Assembly: GCA_024400395.1 (NCBI GenBank)
Contig: JAKSMW010000024.1
Span: forward strand, 1 to 32,958
Reading direction: 5' to 3'
Origin: Bacteroidales bacterium
Lineage (GTDB): Bacteria; Bacteroidota; Bacteroidia; Bacteroidales; F082
DNA length: 32,958 nucleotides
Shown: positions 1,985-31,306 of the stretch, piece by piece
Layout: every line of letters starts with the position of its first letter
Position numbering within the stretch: position 1 is the stretch's first letter
Program-made: the position numbers and the translations under genes
Notes under the pieces: generated by a model
The model's input: the letters and a program-made list of their open reading frames with translations, nothing else
What the model was told of the DNA's origin: nothing
The model's database searches: none

Positions 1985-4900
1985 TCACAGCCCGAAATAT
2001 CTCTCGAAGAACGTCTTGATTTTCTCAATGACAGTCTTTTTCTTCTCATGTCTGTCGCCTCCGCCGAATCTCGACATTGGCGGAAGTATCTTGTCAATTT
2101 CCGTTCCCGTGGTCCTGACCTGTCCGTCCCTGAAGCTGCTCTCGATGAACTTCTCTGTCTCATCTGGTTTCAGGTTCTCACTCTCAATGAGTGTCTTCAG
2201 GTCTTCCGCCTTCTGTTTCTGCACAAAGTCTCTCCAGCTCCGCTCCACATCTGTATCTGCGTTGACGCTGCTGACGAAACTCTCGATGAGCTCCTTCTTG
2301 CTTCTCAACTGTATGCTCGAACCGATGGCTTTCGTGATATTGACCAATATCTCCTTGTTCGCACAATTGGAGTCGTGATAATTCTGAACCAAAAGAAGAA
2401 TGTAGTCAATGTTGATTTCAACCTGCCTGATCAGTTCCGTCTCAAACACAAGGTCATCATTGATGTTCTCCTTGTCTCCGGGCTTTCTCTTTCTCCATTT
2501 CTCCTGAAGGTCAAGGTAGTTGCTCTGGTAATCCTGCAACTGCCTGTCTGAAAGTATCTCTTTTCCTTCAAACTGGTCAAAGGTTGAGAGTATGTTTATC
2601 GATTTGAGAAGGCTCCCGTAAAGCCCGATGAACCGCTTCTCGGCATCTTCTCCCAATATCGGTTCTCCCTCCGGGAACTCTTCCTGCAACTGCTCCACAA
2701 GTTCCTTGTAGCCATAGCAGTGCTTGCCGTTCTCGGCGTCGTATCCGTTGTAATATGACCAGAAGTCTTTGAGCATGACAATGCTGTTTGCATCCTTGTC
2801 GCCAAAAAGTGCAATCGCGTCATCTGTTTCCTGTTGCAAATCCCTGAAACAGACAATGTTGCCAAATGTCTTTACGGAGTTCAAGATTCTGTTCGTTCTT
2901 GAAAACGCCTGAATCAGTCCGTGCTGTTTCAGGTTTTTATCCACAAACAATGTGTTCAGGGTTGTCGCATCAAAACCTGTCAGGAACATATTCACAACTA
3001 TCAACACATCGACCTGACGGTTCTTCATTCTCAAAGACAAATCCTTGTAATAGTTCTGAAACCTATCGTTCGACGTGTCGTAATTCGTGGCGAACATATT
3101 GTTGTAGTCCTTTATCGCGCCTTCAAGGAAATCTCTCGACTGCTGGTCAAGCTGTGTGGTGCTTTCAGGGTTTTCTTCTTCCAGAATGCCATCGATTTCC
3201 TCCTCATTTGCGCCATAGCTGTATATTGTAGCAATCTTCAGCCTCTGTGATTCCGGAACATTCTCCTGCTGTTTCTTGAACTCATTGTAATATGCCTTTG
3301 CCATCGGGATGGAAGCCACGGCGAACATTGCGTTGAAGCCGTTCAGTTTCTGTTCGGTCTTGTGTTCGGAGACCTGCTGTCCCTTCTTTGCGCTTGCCAC
3401 CTTGTGTATGTCATCAAGCACCTTGAAAGAGTAGAAGGAGCTTCTCTTGGTTTTCTGGTCGAAATGGTCGAGGATGTATTTCACCACCTGTGAGATTCTC
3501 TCCGGCGACGCCATTGCCTTCTCCCTGTCAATGGCCGAAATCTGTTTGTCCAATATGCCATCTTTCTCCTTGATGGTATTGACGTAATCAATCCTGAACG
3601 GAAGGACATTCTCGTCGTTGATTGCATCAACGATGGTGTAGGTGTGGAGCTTGTCGCCAAAAGCCTGCTGGGTGGTCTTTAAATTGAGATTTCCGCCTGT
3701 GCCTGCATTCTGTGCAAAGATAGGAGTGCCTGTGAATCCAAAGAGATGGTATTTCTTGAAGTTCCTGGTGATGGCCGTGTGCATCTCGCCGAAGTTGCTT
3801 CTGTGACATTCATCAAAGATTATCACGACCCGCTGTTGGAAGACAGGATGGTTCTTGTTCTTGGCGACAAAGATCGAGAGTTTCTGTATTGTGGTGACGA
3901 TGATACGATAGTCGTGATAGCCGCCGTTCTTGTCCTTGTTCTCCAACTGCCTTTGCAGCACTGCCGTTGATGAGTTTCCATCCGCCGCTCCTTCCTCAAA
4001 CCTGTTGTATTCCTTCATTGTCTGGTAGTCCAAGTCCTTTCTGTCCACGACGAACAGAACCTTGTCGATGTACGGGAGCCTCGACGCCAACTGCGCTGTC
4101 TTGAATGAAGTGAGCGTCTTTCCCGAACCCGTGGTGTGCCAGATGTAGCCGCCACCTTGGATGCTGCCATATTGTCTGTAGTTGTTCGCCACGTTGATTC
4201 TCTGGATAATCCTCTCTGTGGCTGCAATCTGGTAAGGCCTCATCACCATCAGCATCTTCTCGCTTGTGAAGACGCAATATTTTGTGAGGATGTTCAGTAG
4301 CGTATGTTTCGAGAAAAATGTCTTGGTGAAATCCAAAAGGTCTGTGATGACCTTGTTGTTGCTGTCGGCCCAGAATGACGAGAACTCAAAGGAGTTGCTG
4401 GTCTTCTTCGACTTGTTCCTTCCGCCGGTTTCCTGTTCTTTCAGGTGGTTTGACCTTGTGGTGTTGGAGTAATATTTGGTGTTTGTGCCATTGGAGATGA
4501 CAAATATCTGCACATATTCATAAAGGCCACACCCGGCCCAGAAGCTGTCCCTCTGGTATCTGTTAATCTGATTGAAAGCCTCTTTGAGCTGGACTCCTCT
4601 TCTTTTGAGTTCCACATGAACAAGCGGGAGGCCGTTGACAAGGATGGTGACATCGTATCGGGTGTCGTGGTTTCCGGCCTTCTCCTCATACTGGTTGATG
4701 ACCTGCACGAAGTTGTTGTGGATGTTGTTCTTGTCGATAAGATAAATGTTCTGGCTCTCTCCCGTTTCCCTTTTGAGGACTTGGATGTAGTCTTCCTGTA
4801 TCTTGGCTGTCTTGGCGGCGATGTCGTCATTCTTGTTGGCGATGCAGGTGTTGAAGAACTGCTCCCATTCATTGTCGGTGAAATGGTATGAGTTGAGTTT

Positions 4901-5104
4901 CTCCAACTGTGTCCGCAGGTTGGAAACGAGGTCGGTTTCAGTGTGGATATTCAGATATTCATAACCTTGTTCTTGGAGAAGATGAATGAACTCCTTTTCA
5001 AGTTCAGCCTCGCTCTGATATGCGTCAGAAGTGCTTGCTGCGTGTTCGTATTCAGAAACCACCGTATATTCCTGACTTTCAGCTATGATATTGTATTGTG
5101 ACAT
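1985..5104 (-). CDS. hsdR: Type I restriction enzyme, motor and nuclease subunit HsdR
   Basis: A 1039-residue restriction and DNA-translocation subunit. The PD-(D/E)XK nuclease site is Asp151, Glu165 and Lys167 (LVHVELK), the same numbering as in EcoR124I HsdR, whose length (about 1038) also matches; this supports a type IC enzyme. A superfamily 2 helicase motor follows, with Walker A at about residues 323-330 (HTTGSGKT), a DECH box near residue 410 (IIFDECHRS) and a later SRTNR arginine motif. The C-terminal region should dock onto HsdM/HsdS. The frame is intact. Its start overlaps the end of the ATPase gene by 22 bp, so translation is probably coupled to that gene rather than to hsdS, which is separated from it by two inserted modules. 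Confidence 0.96.
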   Translation of the reverse strand: MSQYNIIAESQEYTVVSEYEHAASTSDAYQSEAELEKEFIHLLQEQGYEYLNIHTETDLVSNLRTQLEKLNSYHFTDNEWEQFFNTCIANKNDDIAAKTAKIQEDYIQVLKRETGESQNIYLIDKNNIHNNFVQVINQYEEKAGNHDTRYDVTILVNGLPLVHVELKRRGVQLKEAFNQINRYQRDSFWAGCGLYEYVQIFVISNGTNTKYYSNTTRSNHLKEQETGGRNKSKKTSNSFEFSSFWADSNNKVITDLLDFTKTFFSKHTLLNILTKYCVFTSEKMLMVMRPYQIAATERIIQRINVANNYRQYGSIQGGGYIWHTTGSGKTLTSFKTAQLASRLPYIDKVLFVVDRKDLDYQTMKEYNRFEEGAADGNSSTAVLQRQLENKDKNGGYHDYRIIVTTIQKLSIFVAKNKNHPVFQQRVVIIFDECHRSNFGEMHTAITRNFKKYHLFGFTGTPIFAQNAGTGGNLNLKTTQQAFGDKLHTYTIVDAINDENVLPFRIDYVNTIKEKDGILDKQISAIDREKAMASPERISQVVKYILDHFDQKTKRSSFYSFKVLDDIHKVASAKKGQQVSEHKTEQKLNGFNAMFAVASIPMAKAYYNEFKKQQENVPESQRLKIATIYSYGANEEEIDGILEEENPESTTQLDQQSRDFLEGAIKDYNNMFATNYDTSNDRFQNYYKDLSLRMKNRQVDVLIVVNMFLTGFDATTLNTLFVDKNLKQHGLIQAFSRTNRILNSVKTFGNIVCFRDLQQETDDAIALFGDKDANSIVMLKDFWSYYNGYDAENGKHCYGYKELVEQLQEEFPEGEPILGEDAEKRFIGLYGSLLKSINILSTFDQFEGKEILSDRQLQDYQSNYLDLQEKWRKRKPGDKENINDDLVFETELIRQVEINIDYILLLVQNYHDSNCANKEILVNITKAIGSSIQLRSKKELIESFVSSVNADTDVERSWRDFVQKQKAEDLKTLIESENLKPDETEKFIESSFRDGQVRTTGTEIDKILPPMSRFGGGDRHEKKKTVIEKIKTFFERYFGL

Positions 5105-6426
5105 TTCAAAAAACGTTTTAAGAGGAATGCTAAGAAATACGGGAATGTATAAAACTTCCCGTTGAAGCCTATATTCTTGTTGGCAAATTTGATTCCATAC
5201 ATTATATCCGAATATTTCTCATCGTCAATTACTTTGTTAAGTGAGGCCGTGGCTCCATCCTGTGCCTTGACTTCAATGGGTATAAGGCTATCTGTATCTC
5301 TCACAAAGAAGTCTATCTCCACCGTAGATTTCTCATTTCTGTAAAAGAACAGAGAATATCCTTGTTTCACGAGCATTTCTGCCACAATATTTTCGTAGAT
5401 GGCTCCCTTGTATGTATTGAAATTCTTGTTTTCGCGCAAATCTCGCTGGGCTTCCTCATCCAACGAAGCAATAAGCAGTCCCGTGTCGTGATAGTACACC
5501 TTGAAGTTGTTGTAGATGTAATTCCCTTTAAGAGGCAAGGAGAGTTCTCCCATGCAGTAGCAGATGTTTACCACGCCAGCGTCGTCTAACCAGTCCACGG
5601 TCCCAACATACTCTCTGTTTCTTGCACCATTGGCAATCTTTGATATCTGGAATTTCTTGTTCGGCTGTCCGAGAAACACAGGGATGTGATTATACACGGC
5701 ACGCACCTTGGCCTTGTCTAATCCCACGGCATATTTTGTGATGTCCTCATCATAATCTCTCAGCAGTTGCCGCTGCATCTTCAAAACATTAGCGAAGGTG
5801 TTGTTCTCAAGATATTTCTTCACTATGGCGGGCATTCCGCCGACAACGATGTAATCTTTGAATGCCGCCGACATCACCTCCATCTCCGTCTTGGAGAGTT
5901 GTTCCACACGCAGCATTTTTTCAAACAGTCCATCTATTTGTTCTTCAAGAAATCCCTTTGCCCAGAGGAACTCTTCAAAATCCATGGATTTCATATCGAA
6001 ATCTTCCTTGTAGCCGACACTGTTTGACTCTATTTCATTATAACTGATTCCCATCAGCGAGCCGGAGCATATCACGTCGTATCTGCCATCAATGTAGAAC
6101 GACTTCAAGCAAGTGGCCACTGCCGGCTGTTGTTGGATCTCGTCGAAAAAAAACAGTGTATCGTCAGGAACGAACCGGAACGAAGGATTCAGGAACGACA
6201 GGTTTTTGAGTATGCTGTCAACCTCATATCCATCGTCGAATATTGAAGCATATTGAGGTTGAAGGGCAAAGTTCACCTCTATCACATTGGCGTAGTTGTT
6301 TTTAGCAAATTTACCGACGGAGAACGTCTTGCCAATCTGCCGTGCACCTTTCACGATGAGTGGCTTGTGATCGTCCCGTGCTTTCCAATCCGTCAGGAAA
6401 CCGTCTATCTTTCTTTTTATTTCCAT
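5083..6426 (-). CDS. AAA ATPase with DUF4143 domain (PD-(D/E)XK-like C-terminus)
   Basis: A 447-residue protein of the AAA_14/DUF4143 family, common in Bacteroidota but of unsettled function. Walker A is GARQIGKT (about residues 27-34) and Walker B is the hydrophobic stretch ending FFFDEIQQ (about residue 97). The DUF4143 part has a nuclease-like signature near residue 375-395: Asp in EIDFFVRD followed by Glu/Lys in IPIEVKAQ. The C-terminus overlaps the hsdR start by 22 bp and the promoter lies within an array of 13-mers (6443-6519), so the ATPase is tightly built into the restriction locus. An accessory defence role is inferred from position only; many homologues are solitary. Confidence 0.9.
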   Translation of the reverse strand: MEIKRKIDGFLTDWKARDDHKPLIVKGARQIGKTFSVGKFAKNNYANVIEVNFALQPQYASIFDDGYEVDSILKNLSFLNPSFRFVPDDTLFFFDEIQQQPAVATCLKSFYIDGRYDVICSGSLMGISYNEIESNSVGYKEDFDMKSMDFEEFLWAKGFLEEQIDGLFEKMLRVEQLSKTEMEVMSAAFKDYIVVGGMPAIVKKYLENNTFANVLKMQRQLLRDYDEDITKYAVGLDKAKVRAVYNHIPVFLGQPNKKFQISKIANGARNREYVGTVDWLDDAGVVNICYCMGELSLPLKGNYIYNNFKVYYHDTGLLIASLDEEAQRDLRENKNFNTYKGAIYENIVAEMLVKQGYSLFFYRNEKSTVEIDFFVRDTDSLIPIEVKAQDGATASLNKVIDDEKYSDIMYGIKFANKNIGFNGKFYTFPYFLAFLLKRFLKCHNTIS

Positions 6427-6442
6427 GTGCCGCTATTTTTCT

Positions 6443-6528
6443 TTCACAAAATTCCGGCGCAAAAATACTAAAAAATCACAAAATTCCAGCTAAAAAACAC
6501 CAAAAAATCACAAAATTCCTTTATGATT
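6443..6528. repeat. Left array of 13-mers at 32-bp period, overlapping the ATPase promoter
   Basis: ATCACAAAATTCC occurs at 6475 and 6507, with a one-mismatch copy (TTCACAAAATTCC) at 6443; unit starts are exactly 32 bp apart. A minus-strand -7 element TATTTTTG (6467-6460) sits in the spacer between the first two units, 33 bp before the ATPase ATG, so this is the likely ATPase promoter with built-in binding sites. Positions 6475-6519 (45 bp) recur exactly at 7943-7987, and 6507-6528 (22 bp) recurs exactly at 8007-8028. The period of about three helical turns would place bound proteins on one face of the DNA. Confidence 0.85.
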
Positions 6529-6540
6529 GACTCATTATGA

Positions 6541-7248
6541 TTATTGTGTTGCAATTTGTGGGAAAGCGGAAAACAGTTCCAAAGCGGAGGCCGTCTCAAC
6601 TATCAGTTTGTTTTTGATGAAACTTTTGGTGTGAGCATCGTCAACGACCTCACCCAATCCTTGCATCAGCAACTTCGGACTCGTTTCCTTGATACGTTCA
6701 GCACACCATGCTGCGTATTCCGCAACCGACCTCCCCGTCCGGCTCCTGACAATGTTCTCATTGATGTCTGTATGCTTCTGCAAAAAGAACCAGACATCAA
6801 ATACATCACGGGGCGACAGCCTCTCTCCAAAGGCACACAATTTATGAGCGAACATGTCCGGCAATGTCATCACGCGGATGTCTGTTCCCGCAAGATTAAG
6901 TAATTCATAGTGGTTGTCGTAGATGCGGTTGGAAATTTCCACCTTGAGCATTCTCTCTCCCTTACCATAATCCAGTACAAGCACCGGACCGAAATGTTTC
7001 ATCGCCTCATCATCTATTGTTCCAAATTTCGTGAGTATCGCCCTGATCTTATTGTAAACAAGATCCTCCTTCGATAAATCAAGAAGATTGAAGTCGAGAT
7101 CGGTGGAAAAACGAGGCAATCCATGGAAAAACATCAACGAAGTTCCACCCTTGAAAGCCAAGATGTTGCACAAATCCTTGTCTTTGAATATCAATCCAAG
7201 AATTTGAGCCATATATAGTTTGTGTTTCTGTTTGTTCATGCTTGTCAC
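6541..7248 (-). CDS. abiEii: AbiEii-family nucleotidyltransferase toxin
   Basis: A 235-residue protein with the nucleotidyltransferase-fold motifs of AbiEii: FKGGTSLMF then FSTDLDFNL (the metal-binding DLD pair), KVEIS at mid-protein and the later HKLCAFGERLSPRDVFDV block. AbiEii toxins act as the abortive-infection partner of AbiEi and transfer nucleotides to RNA targets in characterised members. The frame is intact with the motifs present, so it is probably active. The start is either GTG at 7248, overlapping the abiEi stop in a GTGA, or ATG at 7239; the overlap favours translational coupling to abiEi. It ends 13 bp before the left repeat array. Confidence 0.88.
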   Translation of the reverse strand: MTSMNKQKHKLYMAQILGLIFKDKDLCNILAFKGGTSLMFFHGLPRFSTDLDFNLLDLSKEDLVYNKIRAILTKFGTIDDEAMKHFGPVLVLDYGKGERMLKVEISNRIYDNHYELLNLAGTDIRVMTLPDMFAHKLCAFGERLSPRDVFDVWFFLQKHTDINENIVRSRTGRSVAEYAAWCAERIKETSPKLLMQGLGEVVDDAHTKSFIKNKLIVETASALELFSAFPQIATQ

Positions 7249-7823
7249 ACTTTGAGGTTCAATAGTTCTGACACTCTTTTCTCCAGAACACGTGAGTTAT
7301 ATAGCGGAAGGAGTTCTTTTATCCGCAACTTGTCGAGAGGACGCAGATTGTCAAAGTAGCAACTCCCGGCGCTCAAATACACCATATCGAGGAATGCCCT
7401 CTCTGGTGTTGCCATGCATACATTGTCATTCTGGTTTATTCCCTCCATTCCGATCCACAACTCTGGTTTAATGATGCGATAGCGGTACGACCTGCCATCA
7501 ATCTCCACCTCTCGGTTCAGATAGCTCACACAAGTGACAGTTTCGTCAAACTGAAACACGACGCCAGCCCGTTGCAAGACATATTCCAAAGATATATAGG
7601 CTGGACGAAACATACCGCAAGCCATTTCTTTCTCATCATACACCAACTTGGCATATAATCCCTTGCGCGGGTTGCATATTTTACCAGACTTTGAATAGTA
7701 GTGCAGAGATTTCGTCAGTTTCGTGCTGTCTTCACAACCCGTCAACATCATCATTGACTGAATGGTAAAGACTGTGCGACTGCTTTTCAAGATAGTTTCC
7801 AATATATTATTTTGAGAACCCAT
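7245..7823 (-). CDS. abiEi: AbiEi-like winged-helix antitoxin and autorepressor
   Basis: About 192 residues from the ATG at 7823. The N-terminal 60 residues look like a winged helix (ILETILKSSRTVFTIQ through NPRKGLYAK); the C-terminal domain carries the AbiEi-type ATPERAFLDM segment. AbiEi antitoxins neutralise AbiEii and repress their own promoter. An upstream in-frame start at 7913 is rejected: the extra 30 residues are encoded by the 33-bp operator repeats and would lie upstream of the predicted -7 element. The gene overlaps abiEii by a few bases. The family is assigned from partner and layout as much as from motifs. Confidence 0.82.
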   Translation of the reverse strand: MGSQNNILETILKSSRTVFTIQSMMMLTGCEDSTKLTKSLHYYSKSGKICNPRKGLYAKLVYDEKEMACGMFRPAYISLEYVLQRAGVVFQFDETVTCVSYLNREVEIDGRSYRYRIIKPELWIGMEGINQNDNVCMATPERAFLDMVYLSAGSCYFDNLRPLDKLRIKELLPLYNSRVLEKRVSELLNLKV

Positions 7824-7851
7824 AATACAAATTTTTCGTATTTTCAGTTTG

Positions 7852-7942
7852 CAAAAATAAACATTTTTTCGATGATTCAAACTGCAAAATATTACATTTT
7901 TTCGATGATTCAAATCATGAAAACCTACACTTTTTCGATGAT
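7852..7942 (-). promoter_or_regulatory. abiE promoter embedded in three 33-bp-period repeats (probable operator)
   Basis: Minus-strand TTTG (7881-7878), 18 nt and TATTTTTG (7859-7852) form a good core promoter about 30 bp before the abiEi ATG. A 21-bp sequence containing TTTTTTCGATGATTCAAA occurs perfectly at 7861-7881 and 7894-7914, and a partial copy (15 of 16) starts at 7927; unit starts are 33 bp apart. The first copy covers the -33 box and spacer, so a bound protein would block RNA polymerase. AbiEi is the natural candidate; characterised AbiEi operators are inverted repeats, so direct repeats would be a variation. Confidence 0.7.
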
Positions 7943-8028
7943 ATCACAAAATTCCAGCTAAAAAACACCAAAAAATCACAAAATTCCAATATTTTCAGCG
8001 CGATTTATCACAAAATTCCTTTATGATT
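7943..8028. repeat. Right array of 13-mers at 32-bp period, overlapping the hsdS stop
   Basis: ATCACAAAATTCC occurs perfectly at 7943, 7975 and 8007, exactly 32 bp apart with 19-bp spacers. The first spacer is identical to one in the left array; the second (7988-8006) is unique. The last unit runs into the hsdS stop codon (8021-8023). Together with 6443-6528 it brackets the abiE pair, with 45 bp and 22 bp of perfect identity. Confidence 0.85.
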
Positions 8029-9199
8029 CCTTTCTTTTGAAGGTCAGCAGCTTGTCTCTGTAGTACTCATACTGCTGCCTACGCTTCTCAATCTCCGCCG
8101 GAAGACCCGATGTAAGGTCATTGGTGATGGTGTCAAAGCGGTCAAGTAGTGAGACTATCTTTTCTTGTTCTGTTTCAGAGGGAATAGGTAACATAAAATT
8201 GGCTATATCCTTCATACTGATATGAGGAATGGCACCAGGGGTCTTTTTCTTATCAACATAATTTGGGAACCAGTTTGTGATACAATGGTATATGAAATTG
8301 ATATTGACAACAGAAGACCTTATTCTTGCAACTCTTTGGACAAGTAGCAGTGGTAAATCTTCTTTCTTCACCATGCCAAAACTCTTTCCAACCAAGGATC
8401 CATCCATAGAAATGACAATATCATTTTCATTTATTATATATTTCTCCAACCCATCCACACTATTCCAAAACCTATCATCAGTATCATTGAAACATAATTG
8501 TCCTCTCTTGATGTTAATACCCCTCATCAATTTGATACCTGTCTTCGTGAATTGTGTGCTATCAAATGGAAATCCAGACAACAAGTCAGCAACATCTCCC
8601 AACTTTTTCCATTCAACCTCTATTTGCCCCCCCCGATTTAATTTATTGAAACTCAATAAGTTATCTCTATAATACTCATATTGTTTCTTTCTTGCCTCCA
8701 GCTCCGCCTCCAGCTCCGCTGTATATGATGCGAAAGCATCCAAAATTTTCACTATCTCTTCCTGAACAGGGAGCGGGGGAACGGGGATTACCAAATCCTT
8801 TATAACAGAAGGACTTAATCTTGGAATACTTGCCTTTCTTACTTGTGAGAGAAGATAATGCTGATTAGAGACTAAACAATAGTAGATATACTTATTGATG
8901 ACTTTGCTATTATCACATTGTATATATTCACAATCATCTGCTGCCCAACAATCAACATCAGTATATCCAACATTTCCAGCAGCACCTCCACAAATAACAA
9001 AGGTGGTTCCTTGAGGACAATTGGTTTTGTCATAATACCCCATCGGTGTCAGACAATTCTGATATACAGGATAGCCCAACTTAGACAATTGGCTCTTGAC
9101 CACTCTAACACCCCTGCAAACCTGTGCAACATCCCCCAACTTCACATATTCCACCCCATCAGGACAGTATTGCTGTATTAACTCTTCTAACTTACTCAT
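8021..9199 (-). CDS. hsdS: Type I restriction enzyme specificity subunit HsdS
   Basis: A 392-residue DNA-recognition subunit with two target recognition domains (about 15-140 and 195-345). Each is followed by a conserved helical segment with matching ends: QEEIVKILDAF to KKQYEYYRDNLL, and QEKIVSLLDRF to RRQQYEYYRDKLL. HsdS sets the bipartite recognition sequence for methylation and cutting by HsdM and HsdR. Two variable elements lie in the central region: a 12-bp tandem duplication giving TAELEAELEA (about residues 160-169) and a G8 tract at codons 189-191. The current length is in frame, so the full subunit is made. It follows hsdM by 8 bp. Target sequence cannot be predicted from sequence alone. 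Confidence 0.95.
   Translation of the reverse strand: MSKLEELIQQYCPDGVEYVKLGDVAQVCRGVRVVKSQLSKLGYPVYQNCLTPMGYYDKTNCPQGTTFVICGGAAGNVGYTDVDCWAADDCEYIQCDNSKVINKYIYYCLVSNQHYLLSQVRKASIPRLSPSVIKDLVIPVPPLPVQEEIVKILDAFASYTAELEAELEARKKQYEYYRDNLLSFNKLNRGGQIEVEWKKLGDVADLLSGFPFDSTQFTKTGIKLMRGINIKRGQLCFNDTDDRFWNSVDGLEKYIINENDIVISMDGSLVGKSFGMVKKEDLPLLLVQRVARIRSSVVNINFIYHCITNWFPNYVDKKKTPGAIPHISMKDIANFMLPIPSETEQEKIVSLLDRFDTITNDLTSGLPAEIEKRRQQYEYYRDKLLTFKRKES
8627..8634 (-). repeat. Poly-G tract (G8) within hsdS, candidate phase-variation site
   Basis: Eight consecutive C on the plus strand, read as CGG GGG GGG (Arg189-Gly190-Gly191), at the joint between the two HsdS half-subunits. Loss of one G gives a TAG two codons after the tract; gain of one gives a TGA five codons after it. 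Either change yields a protein of about 192-195 residues that keeps the first recognition domain and the central helices. Confidence 0.85.
8694..8717 (-). repeat. 12-bp tandem repeat in the hsdS central spacer
   Basis: Two perfect tandem copies of a 12-bp unit (plus strand GCCTCCAGCTCC) encode the AELEAELEA segment at about residues 161-169. In EcoR124I and EcoR124II a TAEL repeat present two or three times at the equivalent place changes the recognition spacer by one base pair. The similarity in sequence and position is close. Confidence 0.85.
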
Positions 9200-9207
9200 A
9201 CCTGCCC

Positions 9208-10767
9208 TTATTGAAGTTCTGCAATAATCTTGTCAATCGCTGCTCTCAGTGCATTCTCCTTCTCCACTATCTCTTTCAGTTCTGCATTGAGTTTTACTAT
9301 ATCCACCTTCTCCCGGGTGTCCTCCTGCTCCACATAAGTAGAGACAGAGAGGTTGTAGTCTCCTGCTGCCACATCCTCATTGGAGACCAACTTGCATACA
9401 TGGTCAACATCCTTCCTCTCTGCAAACACATCAAGGATATTCCGGATATTGTCATCTGTGAGTTTGTTGCTGTTGGTGACTTTTACACATTCCTTTGTGG
9501 CATCTATGAAGAGAGTGCAGTTGTCCTTCTTGGCTTTCTTCAAGACCATGATGCAGGTTGCGATGCTGGTTCCAAAGAAAAGATTGTCAGGGAGTTGGAT
9601 AATGCAATCCACATAGTTGTTGTCGATCAGATACTGACGGATTTTTCTCTCCGCACCGCCTCTGTACATCACGCCGGGGAAACACACAATGGCCGCCGTC
9701 CCATTGGTTGCAAGCCAAGCCAGAGAGTGCATGATGAAAGCCAGATCCGCCTTCGACTTTGGGGCCAGCACACCCGCCGGAGCAAACCTCGGGTCGTTTA
9801 TCAGAGTGATGTCGTCGTCACCTTTCCATTTGATGGAATAAGGAGGGTTTGAAACTATGCACTCAAAAGGTTCGTCATCCCAGTGCTGGGGGCTCAGCAA
9901 CGTGTCTTCACAGGCGATGTCAAACTTGTCGTAGTCGATGTCGTGAAGGAACATATTTATCCTGCAAAGGTTGTATGTGGTGAGATTTATTTCCTGTCCG
10001 AAGAAACCCTGGCGGACATTATCCTTGCCGAGGATTTTTGCGGCCTTCAGGAGCAGTGAGCCGGAGCCGCAGGCGGGGTCATAAACCTTGTTGATCTGTT
10101 TTTTCCCGAAGGTGGCGATTTTGGTGAGGAGTTCCGACACTTCCTGCGGAGTGTAATATTCGCCGCCCGACTTGCCTGCATTTGAAGCGTACATGCCCAT
10201 CAGGTATTCGTATGCATCACCGAAGGCATCGATGGTATTGTTCTGGTAATCACCAAGTTTCATCGACTGGACGCCTCTCAGCAGTTTCACCAACTTCTCA
10301 TTTCTCTTTATGACGGTAGCGCCAAGTTTGTTTGAATTGACATCAAGGTCAGCGAACAATCCTTTGAAGTCATCTTCACTTTCGGTGCCCTTTGCGGAAT
10401 TTTCGATTGACGAGAATATTCCTTCGAGTGTCATATTGAGGTTAGGGTCGGTGTCACACACTTTGCAGACGTTCTCGAATAGTTGTGACGGGAGCATGAA
10501 GAATCCTTTGACGGCGACCATTTCCTCGCGTGCGCCTTCCGCCGTGGAGTCGTCGAGGTCGGCGTAATTGAACGACTTGTCGCCCGTCTCCCATTCACCT
10601 TTATTTATATAGGCGGTGATGTTTTCGCTGATATATCTGTAGAAGAGCATCCCGAGGATGTACGACTTGAAGTCCCAGCCATCGACGGAGCCTCTCATCT
10701 CATCAGCTATCGCCCAGATGGTGCGGTGAAGTTCAGCTCGCTCCATTTCTTTCTTGTTGTCTGCCAT
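9208..10767 (-). CDS. hsdM: Type I restriction-modification N6-adenine methyltransferase HsdM
   Basis: About 519 residues from the ATG at 10767 ([14 protein letters not shown]), close to the 520 of EcoR124I HsdM. The SAM-binding motif is [14 protein letters not shown] and the catalytic motif is NPPYS, placing it with the N6-adenine gamma-type methyltransferases; an N-terminal HsdM helical bundle precedes them. Two HsdM with one HsdS form the methylase, and with HsdR the restriction complex. An in-frame start at 10803 would add 12 residues but overlaps the predicted promoter (10790-10797), so the shorter form is chosen. hsdM is the first gene of the locus, with hsdS 8 bp downstream. Confidence 0.96.
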
Positions 10768-10789
10768 GATTCGCAAAAAATTCGAGTGG

Positions 10790-10819
10790 CAAAAATAAGA
10801 CAATAATCTGAATTGTAAA
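10790..10819 (-). promoter_or_regulatory. Probable promoter of the hsd locus
   Basis: Minus-strand TATTTTTG (10797-10790) with a weak -33 element TTTA (10819-10816) 18 nt upstream. The hsdM ATG follows 22 bp after the -7 box, giving a very short leader. The region from 10820 to 10930 is AT-rich with no gene. Confidence 0.55.
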
Positions 10820-17423: not shown

Positions 17424-18146
17424 TTATCTATTAAAACTGTCTTCGATGTCACTCCATCTCGGTACATTTAATTTTACATTATAGAACTCAAAATAATTCC
17501 TTTTGAAATTTTGCAACCACGTTCCAGACCGAATACGCGTCTTCGGATTCCTGAAAACCGTTTCATCGATGGCGGAAATGAAACTTTCCAACGAATTGAA
17601 AGGCATGTATCTGGCATTTTCCGAATACCAGACACACGGACGAATCTTATGCACGACATTGTCTTTTATCTGAAGATTCATCGGCCAGTTTTCCATTCTC
17701 CTGCAAATCTCCCATACATTTTTCAACCATAAATTCTTGATAATCACGTAGCCATCTTCAGTCATCTGATAACCGAAAATCAAATATTTGACATGAAGCA
17801 TATATGGTTTCTCAACAATTTCCGACTGATACATGTTGAAATCAGCGATGTCAAAACCCGGCTGCGCATCATAGTTAAATGCTTTGACTTCAAGCAAATC
17901 ACAAGTCAAGTCATCAGGATTCAGGAAAAAATCAGGCGGCATCTGAGAGTTGGAATTTGTTCTGAAATCAATGCCGTTTTTGATCAGCCACCCTTCAAGC
18001 CATTCCTGCATGATGTTTCCGACGACGTCTTTTTGCTTTACAACAATGTCAACATTGCCGAGATAAAAACGAATCTGCCCTTGAATCTCAAGGATTTTCT
18101 CTTCATTTAGAAGTTTCTGAAAAACATTTTCAGCTGAAAGTTTCAT
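17424..18146 (-). CDS. Type II restriction endonuclease, NgoBV-like
   Basis: A 240-residue endonuclease. The segments VVGNIMQEWLEGWL, MPPDFFLNPDD, LLEVKAFN and PGFDIADFNMYQSEI match what I recall of the NgoBV family, which cuts GGNNCC. PPD plus EVK supply a PD-(D/E)XK site (about residues 90-115). It overlaps the cytosine methyltransferase upstream by 4 bp (ATGA), the arrangement of a complete restriction-modification pair in which the methylase is translated first. The frame is intact. Specificity is inferred from the family only. Confidence 0.75.
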   Translation of the reverse strand: MKLSAENVFQKLLNEEKILEIQGQIRFYLGNVDIVVKQKDVVGNIMQEWLEGWLIKNGIDFRTNSNSQMPPDFFLNPDDLTCDLLEVKAFNYDAQPGFDIADFNMYQSEIVEKPYMLHVKYLIFGYQMTEDGYVIIKNLWLKNVWEICRRMENWPMNLQIKDNVVHKIRPCVWYSENARYMPFNSLESFISAIDETVFRNPKTRIRSGTWLQNFKRNYFEFYNVKLNVPRWSDIEDSFNR

Positions 18147-19462
18147 GATTTTGTATTTGATTTTAAATAAACTTCAAGCAATCTCATCGCGACAGACCTT
18201 ATTACCGGCACCGCCACGGTGTTTCCGAGCAAGTCGTATCCGTCATCTTTTTTTACATCAAACTGATAATCATCAGGATATCCGAACAAACGCAAACCTT
18301 CTTTCAACGAGAGGGTTCGTATTCCGTCGTTGTCAACCACAAACAGTTTTTTCATATCCATCGCCACTAAAGTTGGCGTAACATCTTGTGGGTCAAGTAT
18401 TTTATTCACTTCAAAACTAAGTTTTCCAGCAACGATGTTATAACCCAAAGGTAAACTCTCATCCTGCTGTCTGACGATACTCGACTCGCCAAAAAGATTT
18501 GTCTTTGTGACCAAACGTTTCGGATGTTCCTTGCACAAGTAGCCCTTACTCACAAGATCCTCAAGCATTTGCATGAGATTTTCATCAGCGAAGAATGTTT
18601 TTATCTGCTCAAAAGTCAGAGGCATCCCGTCCATCCATTCAATTCCGAACTCTTCAGCCCATTTCTTTTTTCTTCTTTGTTTAAATAGTTCATTCAGCAA
18701 TTTCTTTTGATTATCAGACACTTCACCTTTCATTTCAATATCCCAGCTATGAATATTGTTTTCTCCTCCGCGCTTGTCTTTTATTGACTTTCCATACAAT
18801 TCTTCAAAAGAATAATGAGAAAGAAGCTGATTTATGAATTTGCTATGAACCGTTGGCAAACCTTTTTCCAAGACATCGCCAAGAACCGCAGTTTTCACAT
18901 GGAAAAACTCCAACGATGGCTTTTCAATTTTCGAGCCTACGATATATATTCTCTTGCGTTCCTGAGCGAGACCGAAATTCCTTGAATTCAGTATTTTCCA
19001 CTCCGTCTTATAGCCAAGTTCGGCAAGATGCCCAAGTATCGTCTCCAATGTCCTGCCCATCGGTGCGTTTTTTTCGGTTTTATCGTGATTTACAAGACCT
19101 TCGACATTTTCCAATACAAATCCAAAAGGTTTCTTTTCCTTTAAAATCCTTTCCACTTCAAAAAACATCGTGCCTCTGGTATCCATGAAACCAAGTCTTT
19201 TCCCGGCAGCCGAAAACGCCTGACAAGGAAATCCGGCTAAAAGAATTTCAAAATCAGGAATATCTGACGCGTCAATTTTTGTTATGTCACCTCTGATTTC
19301 TTCGCCCGGATGATTCTGTTTTAAAACATCAACGGCATACTCCTTAATCTCTGATGTCATAACGCATTGCGTTTCAATACCAAAATCACGAGCCGCCTGT
19401 TCAAAACCAAGCCGAATGCCTCCGATTCCCGCGAACAAATCTATAAATTTTATTTTTCTCAT
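18143..19462 (-). CDS. DNA (cytosine-5) methyltransferase of a type II system
   Basis: About 439 residues from the ATG at 19462 (MRKIKFIDLFAGIGG). Ordered C5-methyltransferase motifs are present: I (DLFAGIGGIRLGF), IV with the catalytic cysteine (GFPCQAFSAAGKR), VI (FVLENVEGL), VIII (QERKRIYIVGS) and X (LLGNTVAVPVI). The target recognition region lies at about residues 210-380. It protects host DNA against the coupled endonuclease. An in-frame start at 19495 would lie upstream of the -7 box and is rejected. A TAATTTTG box ends only 7 bp before the ATG, so the mRNA is probably leaderless. Confidence 0.93.
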   Translation of the reverse strand: MRKIKFIDLFAGIGGIRLGFEQAARDFGIETQCVMTSEIKEYAVDVLKQNHPGEEIRGDITKIDASDIPDFEILLAGFPCQAFSAAGKRLGFMDTRGTMFFEVERILKEKKPFGFVLENVEGLVNHDKTEKNAPMGRTLETILGHLAELGYKTEWKILNSRNFGLAQERKRIYIVGSKIEKPSLEFFHVKTAVLGDVLEKGLPTVHSKFINQLLSHYSFEELYGKSIKDKRGGENNIHSWDIEMKGEVSDNQKKLLNELFKQRRKKKWAEEFGIEWMDGMPLTFEQIKTFFADENLMQMLEDLVSKGYLCKEHPKRLVTKTNLFGESSIVRQQDESLPLGYNIVAGKLSFEVNKILDPQDVTPTLVAMDMKKLFVVDNDGIRTLSLKEGLRLFGYPDDYQFDVKKDDGYDLLGNTVAVPVIRSVAMRLLEVYLKSNTKS

Positions 19463-19468
19463 AACCCG

Positions 19469-19496
19469 CAAAATTACTCTTTTTTCCGATTTCAAA
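19469..19496 (-). promoter_or_regulatory. Promoter of the type II restriction-modification genes
   Basis: Minus-strand TTTG (19496-19493), 16 nt and TAATTTTG (19476-19469). The spacer is shorter than the usual 19. The ATG starts 7 bp after the -7 box, so transcription would begin at or near the start codon. Confidence 0.55.
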
Positions 19497-31009: not shown

Positions 31010-31022
31010 TTTTTTATTATTT

Positions 31023-31152
31023 ATTAAAGTCTTTAAAGTCGATTAATGTCATTAATGTCTTGAAAAAAGATCCCCTGAAGCCCCTGAAATTCCTCAAACA
31101 CCTTAAACTCCTCAAGTTCCTTAAACCCCTGAAAACGCCGAAAGCCCCTGAC
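31023..31152. repeat. Tandem array of about fourteen 9-bp units (CCCCTGAAA type)
   Basis: Nine gapless units at 31072-31152 (for example CCCCTGAAG, TTCCTCAAA, CACCTTAAA, CTCCTCAAG) are preceded by more diverged units (ATTAAAGTC, TTTAAAGTC, ATTAATGTC twice; one extra base at 31041). Consensus is roughly NNCCTNAAA. It lies in the leader of the small-protein operon, ending 14 bp from the start codon. Confidence 0.8.
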
Positions 31153-31306
31153 TTGCGGTCAGCGGCGGAGTTTTCAAGCAAATGATAAATTGTTGATTTA
31201 CAGCAAATTGGCAACGGGAGGGGTAATCACAATATCCCTATTCGCCAAATTCGGCGAACAGAAACCTTGTTCTTGATATTGTAAATATGCTTTTTTCGTA
31301 TTGGCG

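Follow-up and report, generated by a model that had tools for sequence, protein, structure and literature searches.

A G8 tract at the seam of a Bacteroidales Type IC HsdS as a probable slippage switch of DNA specificity

In the hsdS gene of a Bacteroidales bacterium, a run of eight G residues stands where the two halves of the encoded specificity subunit join, which raises the question of whether the run is a chance occurrence, a by-product of the protein sequence or a slippage tract that would switch the DNA target of the enzyme. The window, i.e. the whole stretch of 32,958 nucleotides that was analysed, belongs to a 2.12 Mb draft assembly of 61 contigs, about 83% complete, which is one genome of its species. 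The original prediction had placed the G8 on the coding strand, past the central helix and before the second recognition domain, and this was borne out: the plus strand carries C8, and in the AlphaFold2 model of HsdS (mean pLDDT 92.7, pTM 0.74) a helix of residues 143–182 is followed by a coil of residues 183–195 and then by the second half, with the tract coding for residues 189–191 (N188-CGG-GGG-GGG-Q192) inside the coil. The lowest mean pLDDT of the model (70) falls in the block 181–190. A Foldseek search of the PDB with the model returned S subunits as top matches (1ydx, 7vs4, 7vru, 1yf2 and 7bst). Near-copies of one helix motif follow each half (RKKQYEYYRDNLLSF and RRQQYEYYRDKLLTF), as in Type IC S subunits, and the 12-bp repeat within the central helix occupies the place of the LEAT spacer repeat of NgoAV and the TAEL spacer repeat of EcoR124. 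An Rfam search gave no match above threshold.

Table 1. Features of the hsdS gene and its restriction–modification cluster in the window.
Feature	Position	Strand	Basis
hsdS, 392 aa, two recognition domains, one open frame (joined state)	8021-9199	-	Methylase_S E 9.6e-45, two stretches
First recognition domain, residues 1-142	8774-9199	-	Pfam stretch 13-168; model
Central helix, residues 143-182, QEEIVKILD...RKKQYEYYRDNLL	8654-8773	-	AlphaFold2 model; near-invariant columns
12-bp tandem repeat, 2.2 copies (AELEAELE), inside central helix	8694-8719	-	TRF
Coil, residues 183-196, from first helix to second half, partly coded by the tract	8612-8653	-	Model
G8 tract on coding strand (C8 on plus strand)	8627-8634	-	Codons of R189-G191
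TAG stop after loss of one G (G7), half of 192 aa	8620-8622	-	
TGA stop after gain of one G (G9), half of 195 aa	8613-8615	-	
Second recognition domain, residues 197-341	8177-8611	-	Methylase_S match G000:C17:8084-8620; model
C-terminal helices, residues 342-384, near-copy of central helix motif	8048-8176	-	
hsdM, 531 aa, upstream of hsdS	9208-10803	-	TIGR00497 735.7 bits (cut-off 242.75); N6_Mtase
AbiEi-like antitoxin gene, within the cluster	7245-7913	-	PADLOC AbiEi E 1.9e-79
AbiEii-like toxin gene, within the cluster	6541-7248	-	PADLOC AbiEii E 3.7e-103; Pfam AbiEii
AAA_14/DUF4143 ATPase gene (PADLOC PDC-S01), between hsdS and hsdR	5083-6426	-	
hsdR, 1039 aa, EcoR124 type, downstream of hsdS	1985-5104	-	EcoR124_C E 2.7e-66; PDB 2w00_A E 1.7e-258

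As HsdR matches that of EcoR124, and an HsdS profile of 67 rows matches the EcoR124 S subunit (7bst_A, E 5.3e-92), the sequences assign the restriction–modification system of the window to Type IC (EcoR124-like). Inverting hsdS loci, described for S. pneumoniae and others in the available part of PMC7394358, also switch Type I specificity but do so by recombining several hsdS genes, whereas the window contig carries a single hsdS. Across the whole assembly, Methylase_S was found in five places, two of them in this hsdS and three on contigs C10 and C19. The window also holds a Type II pair at 17424–19495, consisting of a cytosine methyltransferase of the dcm family and a restriction enzyme gene.

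The frame that hosts the tract is the intact hsdS, with both halves joined. Frame computation agreed with the original prediction that a slip of −1 leads to a TAG and a slip of +1 to a TGA, leaving halves of 192–195 residues, and gave halves of 194 and 193 residues for G6 and G10, respectively. The gene thus has the make-up of NgoAV, a poly-G at the seam whose off-frames end as a half HsdS of about 200 residues. We consider it probable, at roughly three chances in four, that the G8 is a slippage tract that switches the specificity of a Type IC HsdS in the manner of NgoAV. With eight G residues (modulo three) the halves would form one polypeptide, and the enzyme would mark a bipartite, asymmetric site. 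Replication slippage that adds or drops one G would stop translation 1–4 codons past the tract, and the product would be a half subunit made of the first recognition domain and the central helix. Two such halves would pair via their helices, make up for the missing half and guide HsdM (and HsdR) to a symmetric form of the first half-site. We infer slippage in the species, dimerisation of the half, the new target and an effect on gene expression or phage defence; cells with G7 or G9 would accordingly be present and would methylate the symmetric first-domain site. Eight G residues are a modest length for hypermutation, and this counts against the switch, as does the draft state of the assembly.

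The tract is a real feature of the gene and not a chance run. It is the one G/C run of at least 8 in the window, where the runner-up has a length of 5, and the assembly (2.12 Mb, both strands counted) holds eight G/C runs of at least 7 (one of 7, four of 8 and three of 9). Six of the remaining seven lie in one repeated intergenic element and one just beyond an ORF end; some of these seven are spanned by short open frames, but no such frame was judged a gene, so that the hsdS run is, as judged, the sole in-gene run of the assembly. In the 23 window ORFs taken as genes, GGG makes up 10% of glycine codons, and GGG-GGG encodes one of 42 Gly-Gly pairs, that of hsdS. A chance run was rejected on this rarity in window and assembly, together with the enrichment at the junctions of relatives described below.

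The intergenic element is dispersed, with copies at 31021–31226 of the window (minus strand) and on contigs C6, C16, C23, C35, C45 and C56 of the same assembly (G000), and with 18 partial matches across the genome. It consists of a box TANTTTTG, a run of C7–C9 and CGCCGCTGACCGCARGTCAGGGGC, followed in part by arrays of a GGTTTCA-like 9-mer; in the window copy the C run is interrupted (C4TC3). The copies in the window and on C6, C16, C23, C45 and C56 lie about 390–540 bases upstream of lipoprotein genes (start ...CRKP...), and the contig of the C35 copy ends before any such gene. The element is possibly a slippage-prone leader of surface lipoproteins.

To place the tract among its relatives, we used a protein-similarity scan of a species-genome collection, whose peptide patterns took in the helix (RKKQYEYY) and left out the tract. 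It confirmed at least 575 relatives, and the best 80 loci were kept, in which a script detected 82 half-junctions (67 loci). Runs of G7–G10 stand at 20 of these 82 junctions (16 loci of the best 80 of at least 575), and the other 62 have G1–G5, with G6 at none. The other 861 kb of the same 80 loci contain 16 G/C runs of at least 7, giving a Fisher value of 6.6e-34, which is only a guide since the loci are mutually related (e.g. L073/L110 and L112/L125). A Neisseria locus (N. wadsworthii, L086) has G9 at a seam matching that of the window. With the window added to the best 80 of at least 575 loci, 62 of 83 junctions lack a G tract, which means that the enzyme can do without one.

The same junctions speak to the proposal that a glycine-rich linker has been selected as a flexible hinge, with the G run as its by-product. 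The tract does encode RGG within the modelled coil, as a hinge would have it. However, a Gly-Gly pair occurs within the next 20 residues at 21 of 21 tract junctions and at none of the 62 tract-free ones (window included; best 80 of at least 575), GGG is a minor glycine codon in the window genes, as given above, and the seams of other relatives carry C9, (AG)n, (GACA)n or (GCAA)n, repeats that encode different residues. As Gly-Gly is confined to tract junctions, the tract and not the glycine seems to be kept; the hinge is contradicted by this distribution, and we rejected it as scarcely credible. The stops beyond the tracts are also closer than in control positions of the same genes: both off-frames end within five codons at 9 of 19 joined tracts, compared to 14% of control positions (binomial 6e-4), and within 15 codons at 14 of 19, compared to 52% (0.045). 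By sequence, this fits retention of the tract itself, with clean stops behind it.

What the half subunit would do is the point on which the main rival differs. If the half were inactive or unstable, G7 and G9 would silence the restriction–modification system, and the tract would be an on/off switch. This silencing is the main rival because of a single H. pylori construct: according to the consulted excerpt of PMC3936762, TRD1 of JHP1422 alone did not modify a palindromic site, while TRD3 alone methylated one, and in view of that result the symmetric target of the window enzyme is one that we infer. On the other hand, an on/off tract could sit anywhere early in hsdS or in hsdM, whereas the tracts of the relatives recur at the seam, and the off-frames leave a whole half domain with its helix, cleanly ended. 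Truncated Type IC S subunits, both natural and engineered, work and have a symmetric target in the accessible parts of PMC3874165, with activity likewise described in PMC9577141 (in part), and TRD3 of H. pylori speaks on the same side. Finally, an E. fergusonii plasmid (L184) carries a half HsdS of 204 residues, annotated beside hsdM and hsdR. Half-size HsdS ORFs were seen in L082, L089 and L120 as well. We regard silencing as unlikely, and a change of specificity as the probable outcome.

The closest known system to the window tract is NgoAV of Neisseria gonorrhoeae. That its poly-G switches the form and specificity of HsdS, as the original prediction stated, agrees with the portion of PMC9577141 at hand, where loss of one G changes GCAN8TGC to GCAN7STCA and 92 gonococcal loci with 6–9 G are described. 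The full-length forms given in the excerpt of PMC6789123, GACN6TGC and GACN7TGC, are unlike that motif, and there the motif is set jointly by the four-residue LEAT repeat and the poly-G. Both systems have an EcoR124-type enzyme in which a poly-G near the middle of hsdS decides between a full and an approximately 200-residue HsdS (PMC9577141, PMC7394358, PMC6789123 and PMC3874165, each in part), and in both a 12-bp (four-residue) repeat accompanies the poly-G. In strain FA1090, NgoAV is cut, and its switch of motif is proven, whereas the window gene is assembled joined and its switch is predicted; the two are compared here by description, and their hosts belong to different phyla, that of the window being Bacteroidota. 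The truncated S subunits of EcoR124I and EcoDXXI, of the same Type IC family, resemble the predicted half in consisting of the first recognition domain and helix and in being homodimeric, but they are mutants (available text of PMC3874165), whereas the half of the window would be a slippage product. The REBASE survey of Atack et al. 2020, as quoted in the part of PMC7394358 consulted, finds simple sequence repeats in 7.9% of hsdS genes, and the window gene belongs to this potentially phase-variable class. The window tract seems to be a further, new case of the mechanism known from NgoAV, in a distant bacterium.

Comparison with related genomes, the check that the original prediction proposed, cuts both ways. 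A DNA search with the seam in 173 genomes of the family gave some match in nine, and besides the window's own genome only G049 is close (94%). The nearest locus, L065, from a Bacteroidia MAG of the same genus, appears to be the contig of L027 in this genome. Its DNA matches that of the window with 95.8% identity on the hsdM side (1806 bases), 97.9% on the hsdR side (6139 bases) and 93.8% around the seam (193 bases), the identical G8 included; both recognition domains are replaced, and the seam and G8 are kept. By its sequence, the tract apparently outlives the exchange of the domains that it joins. As the tract length is equal in the two, this pair shows no slippage. Among the wider relatives, seam tract length and frame do differ. 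The predicted specificity switch is thus favoured by the seam position, the clean stops, the Type IC assignment, the recurrence of tracts in relatives and the existence of out-of-frame relatives, and is opposed by the exact G8 of both nearest loci.

The domains that differ between L065 and the window flank a helix and tract that are conserved, which could also mean that the seam is mainly a recombination site for swapping recognition domains, with the G run incidental. In G049, part of the second half is similar to the first domain of the window (38%). Such exchange needs homology, which the helix can presumably supply, and it leaves unexplained both the uninterrupted multi-unit repeats of other seams and the excess of near off-frame stops. 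We give this reading little credence as a full account, and the roles of the seam in recombination and slippage can coexist.

Among the 21 seam tracts (window included; best 80 of at least 575 loci), 19 are joined and two are cut, namely that of L096 and the second tract of L112. Further cut tracts are the third of L125, that of L215 (G461, from the same order and assembled as one contig) and the G11 of L163, a viral contig. L112 and L125 come from two flavobacterial MAGs with 96.5% DNA identity over 6.7 kb, yet their frames differ at two of three seams. The third seam has GT-G10 in one and G8 in the other; at the second seam both have G9 and the frame differs through a base beside the tract. 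Because of this base and the extra T at the third seam, the two are not a clean slippage pair. These sequences indicate that seam tracts and frames differ between near relatives; the difference is one between two MAGs rather than inside a clone, and the number of G does not account for all of it. The hsdS genes of both have four halves with three poly-G seams (L112 at 6571, 7146 and 7688; L125 at 6577, 7193 and 7733), and an extra C9 on the coding strand lies in a proline-coding stretch before the central helix (L112 at 6425; L125 at 6419).

G runs of such length can also cause the polymerase or the ribosome to slip. Slippage in transcription or translation would let a single DNA sequence yield full and half subunits in a fixed mixture. 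Against it, different frames are fixed in the DNA of relatives, and the tetranucleotide repeats found at other seams suit DNA slippage. We therefore consider RNA-level slippage very unlikely compared to a switch in the DNA.

The distribution of the tracts was followed on a rapidly built HsdM tree with 61 rows, drawn from 83 (the window, the best 80 of at least 575 loci, L147 and L163) after leaving out 18 without HsdM on the stretch, three that were too short (L071, L123 and L130) and L101 (26% identity). The poly-G label (16 rows, window included) changes 11 times, with at least seven changes forced by starred branches; shuffled labels give a mean of 14.2 changes and values as low in 10 of 500 shuffles, i.e. 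poly-G is weakly clustered. The labels predate the wider repeat search, so that second-seam loci with other repeats count as 'none'. Common inheritance alone was rejected on these 11 changes. As HsdS may move without HsdM, the tree shows repeated gain, loss or transfer, and not which of these. A gapped poly-G/YYRD pattern matched 38 stretches of viral contigs, three of which are HsdS-like: L147 and L151, which have G7, are joined and share the same protein stretch, and L163. There were matches in 1035 plasmid and eight phage records, and in the six plasmid and two phage regions inspected (EcoR124-like) the seam G tract was not found.

A search for repeats of any unit widened the picture. Slippage repeats were found at 30 of 82 junctions (24 of 67 loci; best 80 of at least 575), with units of G7–10, C9, (GA/AG)6–10, GACA-type tetranucleotides repeated 14–19 times, (GCAA)8 and (CAGAG)8. 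In the same set they occur at two of 74 gene ends, both of which (L083 and L125) are in fact seams, the script having overlooked the half that follows, and in three of eight contig-edge cases. The best matches from the genus and order added 58 loci, in which 21 junctions were found, six of them with a repeat (L025, L026, L027, L191, L199 and L215); in L199 the run is displaced 70 bases past the junction. Long tetranucleotide repeats (AAGC x21; GACA/AGAC/ACAG/CAGA x14–26) lie at HsdS seams or just past the second half (L083 at 6560, L076 at 6588, L058 at 7149, L059 at 4054, L061 at 1402, L062 at 7183 and L085 at 7123).

The repeats favour genes with more than two halves. In loci with three or four halves, 12 of 13 have a repeat after the second half, compared to 12 of 55 two-half chains with a seam repeat (Fisher 3.9e-6; best 80 of at least 575 loci), and the exception, L080, is without any. 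This locus has a tandem hsdS at 5076–7477, in which a full ORF of two halves comes after two ORFs of half size, and its seams are without slippage repeats. Ten proteins with third or fourth halves all have Methylase_S there or a matching number of stretches. L025 and L026, of the window's genus, have three halves and C9 at the second seam. We tentatively suggest, as a possibility that falls somewhat short of probable, that the HsdS seam is a general slippage site and that in one class of loci it makes hsdS a readable array of recognition domains, where slippage would pick between a two-domain and a longer or recombined HsdS, the window gene being the two-half, poly-G version. A parallel for the three-half relatives exists in H. 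pylori JHP1422/JHP1423, where one three-TRD S polypeptide has two specificities (PMC3936762, excerpt); the available portions of that paper mention no slippage repeat for JHP1422, whereas the window gene has one, with two halves. On three-TRD HsdS, a 2025 paper (PMC12429846, seen in part) refers to the REBASE repeat survey of 2020, and part of the array pattern may therefore already be published. The seam and array pattern is a more interesting lead than the window tract itself.

If the switch works as proposed, the cells of one clone would differ in the sites that they restrict and methylate, with consequences for phage resistance, for gene exchange and possibly for gene expression. For the wider family, two general claims follow that can be tested in sequences: that the repeats at HsdS seams are kept for specificity switching, and that HsdS genes with three or four domains are read partly through their seam repeats.
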